Positions 42,729 to 47,596 of a DNA stretch of 64,000 bases are shown here, one piece after another (position 1 is the stretch's first letter; every line of letters starts with the position of its first letter). The notes under the pieces were generated by a model. It was not told where the DNA came from, did not search any database, and was given only the letters and a program-made list of their open reading frames with translations. The stretch comes from Thauera carbonicopians (GTDB lineage: Bacteria; Pseudomonadota; Gammaproteobacteria; Burkholderiales; Rhodocyclaceae), in NCBI RefSeq assembly GCF_025699485.1, contig NZ_JANUXN010000001.1:186001-250000 (forward strand), given 5' to 3'. The position numbers were made by a program, and so were the translations under genes.

Positions 42729-44198
42729 TTGAACCACAAGCTGTTCATCGGCGCCCGCCTGCGCCGCCTGCGTGAGCAGGCCGGCTTGAACCAGGCAGCG
42801 ATGGCTGCCCGGCTGGGTATTTCGCTGAGCTATGTCTGCCAGCTGGAGAACAACCAGCGCCCGGTCAGTGCCACCGTGCTGCTGAAGCTGGTCGAGGCTT
42901 TCGGCTGCGAAGTGAGCGACTTTTCGGAAGAGCAGGACCGGCGCCTGCTTGGCGAGTTGAAGGATGTATTCCGCGATCGCCTGCTGGCCAGCGAGGGCGT
43001 GAGCCAGGCGCAACTGGTGCGCATGGTCGAGCAGGTGCCCGAGCTGGCCAGTGCCTTCGTCGGCCTGGCCCGGCGCCACCAGCGGCTACAGGACGAATAT
43101 GCGCAGTTGGCCGACCGCTTGCACGGCGACCAGTTGCCGACGCTGCTCGCACCTTTGCCGCACGAAGAGGTGCGTGATTTCTTCAACCGGCGCGACAATC
43201 ACATCGAGTCGCTGGACACCCTGGCCGAAGAGCAGGCGAGCAGGGGAGAGCTGGTGCCGGGCGAGCGTGCCGCGGCCCTGCGCAGGATGCTGCATGACGA
43301 GCATGGCATCGAGGTCGAAGGGCTCGGCAACACCGCTGCAGACGGCATGCTGCGGCGTTTCGATGCACGCCGCCGCCGCCTCGCGGTGGCGGCGCACCTG
43401 TCGGACGCCCAGCAGGCTTTCCAGATCGCCACCCAGCTGGCGCTGATCGCACACCGTGACGTCATCGAGGCGGAGATTGCCGCCGCCGGTTTTTCCGATG
43501 TGCAGACCAGCGCCCTGGCACGTCAGGGGCTGGCGCATTATTTTGCCGGCGCGCTGCTGCTGCCTTACGTTGATTTTCTTGCTGCGGCGCGCGGCACGCG
43601 CTACGACATCGAGGCACTGCAGCGGCGTTTCCACGTCGGCTTCGAAACGGTCTGCCATCGCCTGTCTACGCTTCAGCGAAGCGGTGCCCGCGGCGTGCCC
43701 TTCTACCTGGTGCGGGTGGACCAGGCCGGCAACATCTCCAAGCGCCAGAGCGCGACCGCTTTCCACTTCGCCCGTCACGGCGGTGCCTGCCCGCTGTGGC
43801 ATGTGCACGATGCCTTCACTCAGCCGGGGCGCATCCTCACCCAGGTGGCAGAGATGCCCGACGGCACGCGCTTCTTCGGCATCGCCCGCAGCATCGGGCG
43901 CGGCGGCGGCGGCTGGCGGGTGCCGCGCAAGTCCTTCGCCATCGGCCTGGGCTGCGAACTGAGCCATGCCCGCGAACTGGTTTACGCCGACGGCGTCGAG
44001 CTTGCCGCAGCACACGAGGCAGTGCCGATCGGCCCGGGCTGCCGCGTCTGTCCGCGTGCCGACTGCGTGCAGCGCGCTTTCCCGCCGGCCGGCAAGCTGC
44101 TCGAAACCAGCGTCGACGCCGAGTTCCTGAGCTCCTACCGCTTCGAGGACGAGAGCAGAAAACACGGTGGCGACAGGATGGCAAGCGCGCGCGGATGA
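42729..44198 (+). CDS. XRE-family regulator of the short-chain acyl-CoA (ScfR/RamB-like) type, probable regulator of the valine operon
   Basis: A 489-aa protein with an N-terminal XRE helix-turn-helix (LRRLREQAGLNQAAMAARLGISLSYVCQLENN), an ImmA/IrrE-like central region without HEXXH (LAHYFAGALLLPY), and a C-terminal domain with conserved blocks RFHVGFETVCHRLSTLQR and GPGCRVCPRADC. RamB/PrpR/ScfR relatives sense acyl-CoAs and control propionate or acetate metabolism. The start is TTG at 42729, chosen because GAGGAGG lies 7 nt before it. It is divergent from mmsA. It is paralogous over its whole length to the regulator at 54808. Confidence 0.85.
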   Translation: MNHKLFIGARLRRLREQAGLNQAAMAARLGISLSYVCQLENNQRPVSATVLLKLVEAFGCEVSDFSEEQDRRLLGELKDVFRDRLLASEGVSQAQLVRMVEQVPELASAFVGLARRHQRLQDEYAQLADRLHGDQLPTLLAPLPHEEVRDFFNRRDNHIESLDTLAEEQASRGELVPGERAAALRRMLHDEHGIEVEGLGNTAADGMLRRFDARRRRLAVAAHLSDAQQAFQIATQLALIAHRDVIEAEIAAAGFSDVQTSALARQGLAHYFAGALLLPYVDFLAAARGTRYDIEALQRRFHVGFETVCHRLSTLQRSGARGVPFYLVRVDQAGNISKRQSATAFHFARHGGACPLWHVHDAFTQPGRILTQVAEMPDGTRFFGIARSIGRGGGGWRVPRKSFAIGLGCELSHARELVYADGVELAAAHEAVPIGPGCRVCPRADCVQRAFPPAGKLLETSVDAEFLSSYRFEDESRKHGGDRMASARG

Positions 44199-44358: not shown

Positions 44359-46389
44359 ATGCAGAACCCGCCCGAACCCGCCAGCGCGATCGGCGCACGC
44401 AGGGTGATCAAGCGCGACGGCCGTCGCACCGCTTTCGATGCCGGCAAGATCCGTTCCGCGCTGTGCCGTGCGGGCCGGGCCAGTGGCGAATACGGCGACG
44501 ACGAAGCGGCCCGTCTCACCGAACGGGTGCTGCGCGTGCTCGCCCACCGCTTCGGCAAGCAGGCGGTCGGCATCGAGCAAATCCAGGACGTGGTCGAGGA
44601 AACGCTGATCGCCGACGGCCTCGCCGCCACCGCGCGCGCCTACATCGTCTACCGCGAACGGCACGCGGCGCTGCGTGGTGAGCGCAAGGTGCAGGTCGAT
44701 GTCGAAAGCTCGGTCAATGAATATCTCACCCGCGCCGACTGGCGAGTCAATGCCAACGCCAACCAGGGCTACTCGCTCGGCGGGCTGATCCTCAACGTTT
44801 CCGGCAAGGTCACCGCCAACTACTGGCTGTCGCACGTCTATTCGCCCGAGGCCGGCGCCGCGCACCGCGAGGGCGACATCCACATCCACGACCTCGACAT
44901 GCTGTCCGGCTACTGCGCCGGCTGGTCGCTGCGCACACTGCTGCACGAAGGCCTGAACGGCGTGCCGGGCAAGGTCGAGGCGGGGCCGCCCAGGCACATG
45001 TCGAGCGCGGTGGGGCAGATCGTGAACTTCCTCGGCACCATGCAGAACGAATGGGCGGGGGCGCAGGCCTTCTCGTCCTTCGATACCTACATGGCGCCCT
45101 TCGTGCGCAAGGACGGCATGGACTACGAGGAAGTGCGCCAGCACATCCAGGAACTGATCTACAACCTCAACGTGCCCTCGCGCTGGGGCACGCAGACGCC
45201 CTTCACCAACCTCACCTTCGACTGGACCTGCCCGGACGACCTGAAGGAGCAGATTCCGATCATCGCCGGCGAGGAAATGCCTTTCGCCTACGGCGAGCTG
45301 CAGGCCGAGATGGACATGATCAACCGCGCCTACATCGAGGTCATGTCGGCCGGCGACGCCAAGGGCAGGGTGTTCACCTTCCCTATCCCGACCTACAACA
45401 TCACCCCGGACTTCCCGTGGGAGTCGGACAACGCCGCGCTGCTGTTCGACATGACGGCCAAGTACGGATTGCCGTACTTCCAGAACTTCGTGAACTCGGA
45501 ACTGCAGCCCAACATGGTGCGCTCGATGTGCTGCCGGCTGCAGCTCGACCTGCGCGAACTGCTCAAGCGCGGCAACGGCCTGTTCGGCAGCGCCGAGCAG
45601 ACCGGCAGCCTGGGCGTGGTCACGGTGAATTGCGCGCGCCTGGGCTACCTGCATCGCGGCGACGAGGCCGGCCTGTTCGCCCGCCTGGACCGCCTGCTGG
45701 AAATCGGCCGCGACAGCCTGGAGGTCAAGCGCAAGCTGATCCAGCGCCTGATCGACCAGGGCCTGTTCCCCTACACCAAGCGCTACCTCGGCACGCTGCG
45801 CAACCACTTCTCCACGCTGGGCGTGAACGGCATCAACGAGATGATCCGCAACTTCAGCGCGGACACCGAGGACGTCACCACCGAATGGGGCCACGCCTTC
45901 GCCGTGCGCCTGCTCGACCATGTGCGTGCCCGCATGACCGCCTTCCAGGAAGAAACCGGGCATATGTACAACCTGGAAGCCACCCCGGCGGAAGGTACGA
46001 CCTACCGCTTCGCCCGCGAGGACAAGAAACGCTGGCCGGACATCCTGCAGGCCGGCACCACCGAGCAGCCGTACTACACCAACTCCTCGCAACTGCCTGC
46101 CGGCTTCACCGACGACCCCTTCGAGGCCCTGGCCCGGCAGGAGGCGCTGCAGCGCAAATACACCGGCGGCACCGTGCTGCACCTCTACATGGGCGAGCGC
46201 CTGTCCAGCGGCGAAGCCTGCAAACGGCTGGTACGGCGCGCGCTGGAGAACTTCCGCCTGCCCTACATCACCGTGACGCCGACTTTCTCGATCTGCCCGG
46301 CGCACGGCTACCTGGCCGGCGAACACGTCTTCTGCCCGAAATGCGACGAAGAGCGCCTGGCCGCCAAGCGGGCGCGGCTCGCGGCCTGA
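44359..46389 (+). CDS. nrdD: Class III (anaerobic) ribonucleoside-triphosphate reductase, catalytic chain without its glycyl-radical tail
   Basis: A 676-aa protein with an ATP-cone (about 12-100), the 10-stranded barrel blocks (NANANQGYSLGGLI, GDIHIHDLDMLSGYCAGWS, TQTPFTNLTFDW), the cysteine-rich active-site segment SMCCRLQLDL and a C-terminal zinc-binding stretch (SICPAHGYLAGEHVFCPKC). It makes dNTPs without oxygen. The chain ends at EERLAAKRARLAA, exactly where other NrdD proteins continue into the RVxGY glycyl-radical loop. That loop is encoded by the next gene, which has its own start and ribosome site. An FNR-like site precedes it. Confidence 0.93.
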   Translation: MQNPPEPASAIGARRVIKRDGRRTAFDAGKIRSALCRAGRASGEYGDDEAARLTERVLRVLAHRFGKQAVGIEQIQDVVEETLIADGLAATARAYIVYRERHAALRGERKVQVDVESSVNEYLTRADWRVNANANQGYSLGGLILNVSGKVTANYWLSHVYSPEAGAAHREGDIHIHDLDMLSGYCAGWSLRTLLHEGLNGVPGKVEAGPPRHMSSAVGQIVNFLGTMQNEWAGAQAFSSFDTYMAPFVRKDGMDYEEVRQHIQELIYNLNVPSRWGTQTPFTNLTFDWTCPDDLKEQIPIIAGEEMPFAYGELQAEMDMINRAYIEVMSAGDAKGRVFTFPIPTYNITPDFPWESDNAALLFDMTAKYGLPYFQNFVNSELQPNMVRSMCCRLQLDLRELLKRGNGLFGSAEQTGSLGVVTVNCARLGYLHRGDEAGLFARLDRLLEIGRDSLEVKRKLIQRLIDQGLFPYTKRYLGTLRNHFSTLGVNGINEMIRNFSADTEDVTTEWGHAFAVRLLDHVRARMTAFQEETGHMYNLEATPAEGTTYRFAREDKKRWPDILQAGTTEQPYYTNSSQLPAGFTDDPFEALARQEALQRKYTGGTVLHLYMGERLSSGEACKRLVRRALENFRLPYITVTPTFSICPAHGYLAGEHVFCPKCDEERLAAKRARLAA

Positions 46390-46418
46390 CATCCCATTTT
46401 TTCCACGAGGAGGACACC

Positions 46419-46616
46419 ATGAACATGCACACCGCCACCGAAACCCGCCATCTCGCCGACACCATCACCCTCAGCGACGACGAGCGCCAACCTTGCGAAG
46501 TCTGGACCCGCGTCATGGGCTACCACCGCCCGGTCGCCAGCTTCAATACCGGCAAGAAAGGCGAGCACGCCGAACGCCGCTTCTTCGCCGAAAACCGCTG
46601 CAGCCTCGCCGGCTGA
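46419..46616 (+). CDS. Separate glycyl-radical subunit of the class III ribonucleotide reductase
   Basis: A 65-aa protein. Residues 26-56 (CEVWTRVMGYHRPVASFNTG and onwards) match the C-terminal glycyl-radical segment of full-length NrdD, with the radical Gly34 in RVMGY and the conserved FNxGKKxE. CGAGGAGG lies 6 nt before the ATG, 29 nt after the nrdD stop, so it is translated independently and is not a frameshifted tail. The first 25 residues are a variable acidic lead. It should dock on NrdD and be activated by NrdG, encoded 13 nt downstream. Confidence 0.85.
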   Translation: MNMHTATETRHLADTITLSDDERQPCEVWTRVMGYHRPVASFNTGKKGEHAERRFFAENRCSLAG

Positions 46617-46629
46617 AGCGGGCATCCCC

Positions 46630-47268
46630 ATGTCCAGTTTGCGCGTCGGCGGCTTCGTGCCGCTGACCACCATCGACTTTCCCGGCCGGCTGGCCGCCGT
46701 GGTGTTCTGCCAGGGTTGTCCGTGGCGTTGCAGCTACTGCCACAATCCGCAGTTGATCCCGGCGGATGCGGAAGCGGAGCGCCCCTGGCAGGCGGTGCTG
46801 GATTTCCTCGAACGCCGCCGCGGCCTGCTCGATGGCGTGGTGTTCTCCGGCGGCGAGCCGACCCTGCAGGCCGCACTGCCCCAGGCCCTGCGTGACGTGC
46901 GCGCGCTCGGTTTCGAGACCGCGCTGCACACCGCCGGCATGTACCCTGAACGCCTCGCCGCGGTGCTGCCGCTGCTCGACTGGGTGGGGCTGGACATCAA
47001 GGGCCCGGCCGAACACTACGACGCGATCACCGCCACGCCCGGCAGTGCAGGCGTGGTGCAGCGTTCGCTGGAGCTGCTGCTGGCCAGCGGCGTCGACCAT
47101 GAATGCCGAACGACCTGGCATGCCGGCCTGTTCGGCAGGGACGAACTGGACCGCCTCGGCGCCGGACTCGTGCAGCGCGGAGTACGACGCTGGAAGGTGC
47201 AGCCCTGCCGCGTCGAAGGCCGGCAAGCAGTGACCGATGCATCGGCGTTCGAATGTGAGTCTGGATGA
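46630..47268 (+). CDS. nrdG: Anaerobic ribonucleotide reductase activating enzyme
   Basis: A 212-aa radical SAM protein. The cluster motif is Cys30-X3-Cys34-X2-Cys37 (CPWRCSYCHNP), followed by VVFSGGEPTLQ and GLDIKGP. It generates the glycyl radical, here expected on the separate 65-aa subunit. It starts 13 nt after that subunit, so all three genes form one operon. Confidence 0.93.
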   Translation: MSSLRVGGFVPLTTIDFPGRLAAVVFCQGCPWRCSYCHNPQLIPADAEAERPWQAVLDFLERRRGLLDGVVFSGGEPTLQAALPQALRDVRALGFETALHTAGMYPERLAAVLPLLDWVGLDIKGPAEHYDAITATPGSAGVVQRSLELLLASGVDHECRTTWHAGLFGRDELDRLGAGLVQRGVRRWKVQPCRVEGRQAVTDASAFECESG

Positions 47269-47282
47269 GTTCTGGGTACCGG

Positions 47283-47596
47283 AAAACCACCACGCATGGC
47301 ACGGCGAGAAGGTTGCGATCGGCGTCCAGGCGATGATGTTCCTGGCCGACCAGAAGCTCGAACTGATCGATACCGTGTTCGACTTCAGTGGGGCTGTCGG
47401 CCTGCCGACGACGCTGGCGGACATCGGCCTGGGCGGCGTCAGCGACGAGCAGCGGTTGATCGCTGCGACTGCGGCGAGTGCACCGGGCGAGACGATCCAC
47501 AACGAGCCGGCCGAGATTACGCCGCAGCGGGTGCTGGCGGCGCTGAAGGTGGCGGATGTCGAAGGGCGGCGGCGCAAGGCCTTGCGCGGTGCCTGA
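47283..47596 (+). pseudogene. gldA: 3' remnant of an iron-dependent glycerol dehydrogenase gene
   Basis: The frame from about 47283 encodes NHHAWHGEKVAIGVQ, then SGAVGLPTTLADIGL, APGETIHNEP and ITPQRVLAALKVAD up to a stop at 47596. This is the last quarter (about 105 residues) of GldA-type glycerol dehydrogenases, including the metal-ligand histidine segment HHxxHGEKVA. The NAD-binding N-terminal three quarters are missing; the frame merges into the 3' end of nrdG. It is a truncated, presumably non-functional gene. Confidence 0.75.

Follow-up and report, generated by a model that had tools for sequence, protein, structure and literature searches.

Organization of the nrdD locus

The nrdD locus of Thauera carbonicopians lies in a 64,000-nucleotide stretch of contig NZ_JANUXN010000001.1 (positions 186,001 to 250,000, forward strand), hereafter the window, and appears to encode a class III ribonucleotide reductase (RNR) whose glycyl-radical loop is carried by a small gene of its own (Table 1). 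An initial annotation, made from the nucleotides alone, had described a large chain with the ATP-cone, barrel, active-site cysteines and zinc stretch that ends short of the radical loop, and profile positions and motifs agree with it. The body covers positions 2-531 of the 562 positions of PF13597 (578.9 bits), whereas the small open reading frame (ORF) covers positions 530-562 (E 1.3e-7, 31.1 bits, cut-off 26.2), and PF13597 is its sole Pfam match up to E 1. A separate ORF therefore accounts for the loop with Gly34 in RVMGYHRP, as had been proposed. Because the two products share out PF13597 at about position 530/531, the split falls at the radical loop. NCBIfam NF006126 is divided likewise, with positions 3-651 in the body and 649-682 in the small ORF. 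The features of the NrdD family are otherwise present, namely the NRDD domain, the ATP-cone (PF03477, 78.2 bits), the finger-loop cysteines and an adjoining NrdG activase; the NrdD chain itself has no C-terminal glycyl-radical loop, as it stops at profile position 531 of 562. The body contains an SMCCR motif, and MCCR is one of the two dominant class III finger-loop motifs according to PMC9669993, whose finger-loop naming is followed here. The zinc ligands were assigned from sequence alone.

The GAGGAGG ribosome site, the 29-nucleotide (nt) gap between body and small ORF and the following nrdG, all noted in the initial annotation, can be read directly in the DNA, and the two reading frames differ. 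Its leader of about 25 residues is present in the small protein but is not conserved, as conservation begins at about residue 18.

Table 1. Features of the nrdD locus and its neighbours (window positions)
Feature	Position	Strand	Description or basis
FNR/Anr-type box TTGATGCATGTCAA	44284..44297	+	61 nt 5' of nrdD; one mismatch to TTGATNNNNATCAA
nrdD body	44359..46389	+	676 amino acids (aa), TGA stop; ORF reading, profile matches
Parts of nrdD body			ATP-cone residues 15-103, NRDD barrel, finger-loop MCCR, zinc hairpin C646..H649..C659..C662; without glycyl-radical loop
Ribosome binding site of small gene, GAGGAGG	46407..46413	+	direct reading; 5 nt 5' of ATG
Small gene, separate glycyl-radical subunit (predicted)	46419..46616	+	65 aa, Gly34 in WTRVMGYHRP; profile match
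nrdG, radical S-adenosylmethionine activase, NrdG2 type	46630..47268	+	212 aa; TIGR02495, 199.3 bits (cut-off 131.15)
5' neighbour	42729..44195	+	resembles acetate regulator RamB, 515 bits, under the 700 cut-off
ORF directly 3' of nrdG	47237..47593	+	gene remnant; match confined to the final 100 positions (263-363 of 367) of glycerol dehydrogenase

A second complete nrdD, which the initial annotation had considered, was not found in this genome: a profile search of its 48 contigs (completeness 100) gives just the two PF13597 pieces, and the small gene is single copy. Since no other source of an NrdD radical loop exists in the genome, the small protein looks like an obligate subunit rather than a spare. 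The genome also encodes two further RNR large chains (PF02867), so that NrdD would be an additional, anaerobic route. Among the matches listed, the closest named relative is T. linaloolentis (94 percent).

Three other Thauera genomes that have the gene keep two separate ORFs each, in a frame relation that is not uniform, and the sequencing error that had also been considered is thus not borne out. Between the window and these three genomes, differences in the loop core are nearly all silent, with a proportion of nonsynonymous differences (pN) of 0-0.011 and of synonymous differences (pS) of 0.375-0.458. As judged from these alignments, the loop core is under strong purifying selection.

Distribution of the split across genomes

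The initial annotation held that the split is genuine, which comparison across genomes strongly supports. Named genomes contain at least 566 proteins related to the loop protein, with fused ones possibly in that total, and the survey covered the best 80, a sample biased to close relatives. In these 80 loci, 75 have a body and a separate loop gene, one is fused, one is cut by the contig end and three have no body nearby (L077 was kept distinct from the contig-cut locus). nrdG lies within 400 nt in 71 of the 75. Of 142 distinct loci in which body and loop lie no more than 4 kb apart, 132 were split and 10 fused.

Two genome samples gave the same picture. An NRDD match was found in 95 of 300 genomes of the window's own order: 76 with a loop-less body, 9 fused, 8 with only a lower-scoring full-length type, one cut by a contig end and one with a loop gene and nrdG without a body. 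A separate loop gene was present in all 76 genomes with a loop-less body. Among 398 genomes of the phylum, the 57 with an NRDD match comprised 13 split, 43 full-length and one weak partial, and the loop gene was again present in every split case (13/13). The two samples pooled give 85 distinct genomes with a loop-less NrdD, and each of them has a separate gene for the loop protein. G608, in which the body is cut by a contig end, was excluded from the split count; G569, whose 6.9 kb contig has a loop gene and nrdG without a body, was likewise excluded. The split was also found in plasmid records of Paracoccus, Bradyrhizobium, Shinella, Azospira and Sulfuricurvum. These results point to a class III RNR split that is real, widespread and apparently functional.

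The small gene stays with the activase gene: in three genomes the loop gene is followed by nrdG while the body lies apart, on another contig in G478, 9.1 kb away in G044 and 2.3 kb away in G486. The small gene also seems to outlive the large one, since an intact loop gene adjoins degenerate nrdD body pieces in L179 (G587:C25), and in L034 a loop gene has no nrdD body in the upstream DNA examined. On plasmid pTfr153 of Thiothrix fructosivorans (L134), the nrdD body matches in two frames, is unannotated and may be interrupted, and the loop gene and nrdG are annotated. A lone loop gene of Sutterella sp. UBA1442 (L045:3480-3713) lies amid metabolic and transporter-like genes as an unlinked chromosomal copy, with neither nrdD nor nrdG within 3.5 kb on either side.

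A tree of 83 NrdD bodies, built with a quick method, included 8 fused proteins. They fall in four places: five in one well-supported group inside the split proteins, two singly, and one in a distant phage branch. At least four changes between split and fused are required on this tree, of which the well-supported branches force only one. The tree suggests re-fusion of body and loop gene, which would fit body and loop as two parts of one machine.

Loop genes on viral contigs, prophages and plasmids

Stand-alone loop genes also occur on mobile elements. On viral contigs, 150 matches were obtained with the window protein and 220 with alignment A1, and the surveys covered the best 80 of each set, which biases them to close relatives. 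Both body and nrdG were lacking in 79 of the first 80 loci (best 80 of 150). Neighbours of these orphans include portal, terminase, endolysin and head-tail adaptor proteins, as found among 133 neighbouring ORFs (71 upstream, 62 downstream), of which 97 were family-scanned and apparent false frames were left out. In prophages L171 (G657) and L394 (G524), the loop gene directly follows an endolysin gene (PF00959, PF00182), and the small ORF after it is Rz spanin-like by position only. L169 adjoins a phage virion morphogenesis gene (PF05069), L186 adjoins a relaxase-like gene, L168 lies near a gene for single-stranded DNA-binding protein, and two orphan loop genes are on Allochromatium plasmids. 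Only two weak matches were found in public phage records, a fused NrdD and a protein of an archaeal virus.

The phage and plasmid copies suggest a swappable radical module, and the orphans of viral contigs, prophages and plasmids could be spares. Alternatively, they may be decoys or inhibitors of the host NrdD, or have some other role. This would suit the 97 distinct viral contigs from both scans, of which 96 have no nrdD body and all 97 have no nrdG in the flanks examined. On the other hand, 76 distinct orphan peptides retain the loop core, partly by selection because the extraction pattern demanded GY, and the median pairwise ratio of nonsynonymous to synonymous substitution rates (dN/dS) is 0.29 over 38 codons in 260 non-independent pairs. 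In addition, extra loop genes in the order sample are confined to genomes with the split enzyme (5 of 76 compared with 0 of 224 other genomes; Fisher p 0.0009, a value that ignores relatedness). That the orphans are something other than spare subunits is therefore considered unlikely, though it is the strongest of the alternatives.

The family phrog_4132 (179 positions, function not assigned) matches the window protein and six orphans with its C-terminal region, at E 1.4e-5 to 8.1e-11. It was dropped as a marker of orphans, since it also matched an unrelated ORF (L277), and because that ORF lacks the radical loop the family looks mixed.

Several other proteins of viral origin have unusual architectures. 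In an 808 aa NrdD body on a viral contig (L196:2389-4812, same contig as L323), the two MCCR cysteines directly flank an insert of about 125 aa, which ends in THN before the Cys; by its position and ending it resembles a mini-intein placed within the active site. The loop gene of this contig is also separate. In the fused NrdD of phage record MT835493.1 (L270:2033-4438), the radical loop is followed by a glutaredoxin-like domain (TIGR02196, E 1.9e-7), an arrangement that might combine reductase and reductant in one chain. In the archaeal virus ANMV-1 (L271:3686-4120; AJP62049.1), a 144 aa protein annotated as anaerobic RNR has an NrdD-type loop behind a zinc-ribbon-like CHDC...CPKC part, and no nrdD body is among the listed neighbours. 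The orphan loop proteins of viral contigs L227, L233, L243 and L253 have a Cys-rich N-terminal part that is possibly metal-binding.

Regulation and function

The box upstream of nrdD differs at one position from TTGATNNNNATCAA, which we take to be the FNR/Anr box consensus. As a single FNR-type site in the window it is not beyond chance (2 matches, 1.18 expected). Across related genomes, a box with at most one mismatch was found in 26 of 95 regions upstream of related nrdD genes, compared with a mean of 0.94 and a maximum of 5 across 200 shuffles; the background was made by simple letter shuffles, and a few of the 95 regions are near-duplicates. Upstream boxes of this type would suit an anaerobic enzyme. 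As for other genes around the locus, a GntR-type regulator and a methylisocitrate-lyase-like gene lie 3' of it on the minus strand.

Plasmid pHG1 of Cupriavidus necator H16 has the same gene order, with a 676 aa body, a 66 aa small gene (RefSeq name nrdD) and nrdG. In the H16 large chain, residue 650 is the glycine of HGY in the zinc hairpin. Siedow et al. reportedly named Gly650 as the radical site, and because that residue sits in the zinc hairpin, the assignment would deserve a check. The NrdD of Pseudomonas aeruginosa is presumably also about 675 aa long. The sequence of the metallidurans strain is split as well; its genes are cited as Rmet_5137 and Rmet_5139 in a passage of PMC2864759 that does not mention the locus tag in between. 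In the same source, NrdDG of C. necator H16 is reported to be essential for complete denitrification. As H16 has the same split, the split class III RNR very likely works, with H16 giving indirect genetic support.

A structure model was made for L389, a Thauera relative, with TGA read as Ser and body and loop joined as one chain. Its mean predicted local distance difference test (pLDDT) score is 76.9, Foldseek shows similarity to solved NrdD chains (best E 7.4e-28), and the model is consistent in fold with class III RNR.

Proposed two-subunit enzyme and alternatives

The locus is best read as encoding a class III RNR made of two subunits, of which the small radical subunit is replaceable and is also carried by mobile elements, with a probability of about 0.8. 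Comparison of sequences shows the two genes, their co-occurrence, the place of the small gene beside nrdG, selection on the loop and the orphan copies; from these we infer docking, radical chemistry, exchange and the use of mobile copies. The large chain would run from the ATP-cone through the barrel, which bears the finger-loop cysteines, to the zinc hairpin and stop at that point. The 65-residue chain would dock beside the zinc hairpin and put its Gly34 loop into the barrel, and NrdG would make the radical on Gly34. The radical would then move to a finger-loop cysteine and turnover would start. Oxygen cleavage at the glycyl radical would cost only the small subunit, which a fresh copy could replace. 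Phage, prophage and plasmid copies might supply the subunit to hosts with the split enzyme. A wider scenario has even odds: in many Proteobacteria the class III RNR would consist of two subunits, the radical one being an exchangeable cartridge, and stand-alone cartridges spread by phages, prophages and conjugative elements would service the split NrdD of the host during anaerobic infection.

Some observations weigh against the two-subunit reading. The small gene is patchy and accessory within the genus (4 of 29 Thauera genomes). One of the five extra loop genes in the order sample, that of G587, adjoins the degenerate nrdD pieces, and without it the association with the split enzyme has p 0.004; a sixth genome, G569, was left out of that comparison. 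No extra loop gene was found in the 398 phylum genomes, the 13 split ones included. The L389 model was dropped as evidence of docking, as a joined read-through chain says nothing on docking in trans.

A different account makes the small protein merely a repair part, with a large chain that works alone or has another radical site. There are precedents in YfiD and phage T4 Y06I for pyruvate formate-lyase (PFL): YfiD replaces the damaged radical part of PFL, and spare parts for other radical enzymes have been speculated on (PMC8683613). However, the window genome has no full-length NrdD in need of repair, and the loop gene accompanies all 85 loop-less bodies, which makes this account improbable.

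Body and loop could also form a single polypeptide after all, through stop read-through, programmed frameshifting or later joining. Some loci do have one in-frame stop between body and loop (as in 5 of the 76 loop-less genomes of the order); the other 71 have separate ORFs with no in-frame match across the stop. The relative frames 0, 1 and 2 occur 44, 42 and 46 times among the 132 distinct split loci (chi-square p 0.91), and because the three frames are equally common there is no sign of read-through or frameshifting. Body stop codons of split loci are of all three kinds (tallied before duplicate removal), and body-loop gaps reach 403 nt in the counted loci. Given this frame spread and the unlinked loop genes of G486, G044 and G478, read-through and frameshifting were rejected, and a single chain is highly improbable. 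An error in assembly or sequencing, or the recent breakage of a single nrdD by mutation, leaving a pseudogene, would agree with the closeness of the two genes and the shared frame of 44 loci, but was rejected as virtually excluded, and is already refuted for the family, by the same arrangement in 75 of the 80 inspected loci, the even frames, the small gene's own ribosome site, the purifying selection on the loop and the loop genes unlinked from the body.

Significance and comparison with known systems

Class III RNR is described as a homodimer of NrdD in which the catalytic chain itself bears the radical loop, at its C-terminus. No description of a separate NrdD radical subunit was found in a partial coverage of the open-access literature, which comprised passages or sections of PMC4390871, PMC11226230, PMC3019208, PMC4860495, PMC8683613, PMC9531940, PMC9669993, PMC12386605, PMC4493059, PMC2795772, PMC9176816, PMC2864759, PMC5645315 and PMC12662201. 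That other glycyl-radical enzymes have spare parts has been foreseen in a general way, and no description of such a system for an RNR was found in the same partly covered sources. A widespread form with a separate loop would part catalysis from radical storage, as class I RNR does by other means, and would offer a natural system for adding, removing and swapping the radical part. It makes testable the use of a glycyl radical in trans as normal practice and the repair of oxygen damage by exchange, as proposed for YfiD. If the phage copies work, they would let phages raise the host's anaerobic synthesis of DNA precursors at little cost. A 65-residue gene is, by way of caution, easily missed or mislabelled, and RefSeq labels several small loop genes nrdD.

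Compared with NF006126 (PRK08270, 684 positions), the closest NCBIfam model, the window body has the same ATP-cone, NRDD barrel, MCCR, zinc hairpin and nrdG partner (1132.5 bits), but model positions 649-682, the radical loop, are on a separate chain. The window protein matches the C-terminal region of phrog_4132, which is longer. Like YfiD/GrcA and T4 Y06I, the PFL spare parts of PMC8683613, the window protein is a small stand-alone radical-loop protein, and a phage-borne version exists. Unlike them, its loop is of NrdD type (PF13597) rather than PFL type, and there is no intact full-length partner to repair in the window genome, where the sole NrdD is loop-less. The comparison with YfiD made in the initial annotation thus stands in its logic but not as membership, as the small protein is the only NrdD radical-loop source in that genome. 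In the split class II enzyme NrdJa/NrdJb, an RNR catalytic chain is likewise spread over two genes (PMC4860495 and PMC9669993). That enzyme belongs to another RNR class with another chemistry. In class I RNR (NrdA and NrdB), the radical is on a subunit apart from the catalytic barrel. The radical subunits are unrelated, and class I uses tyrosyl or metal chemistry, but in the window enzyme too the radical is predicted to sit on a subunit separate from the barrel.

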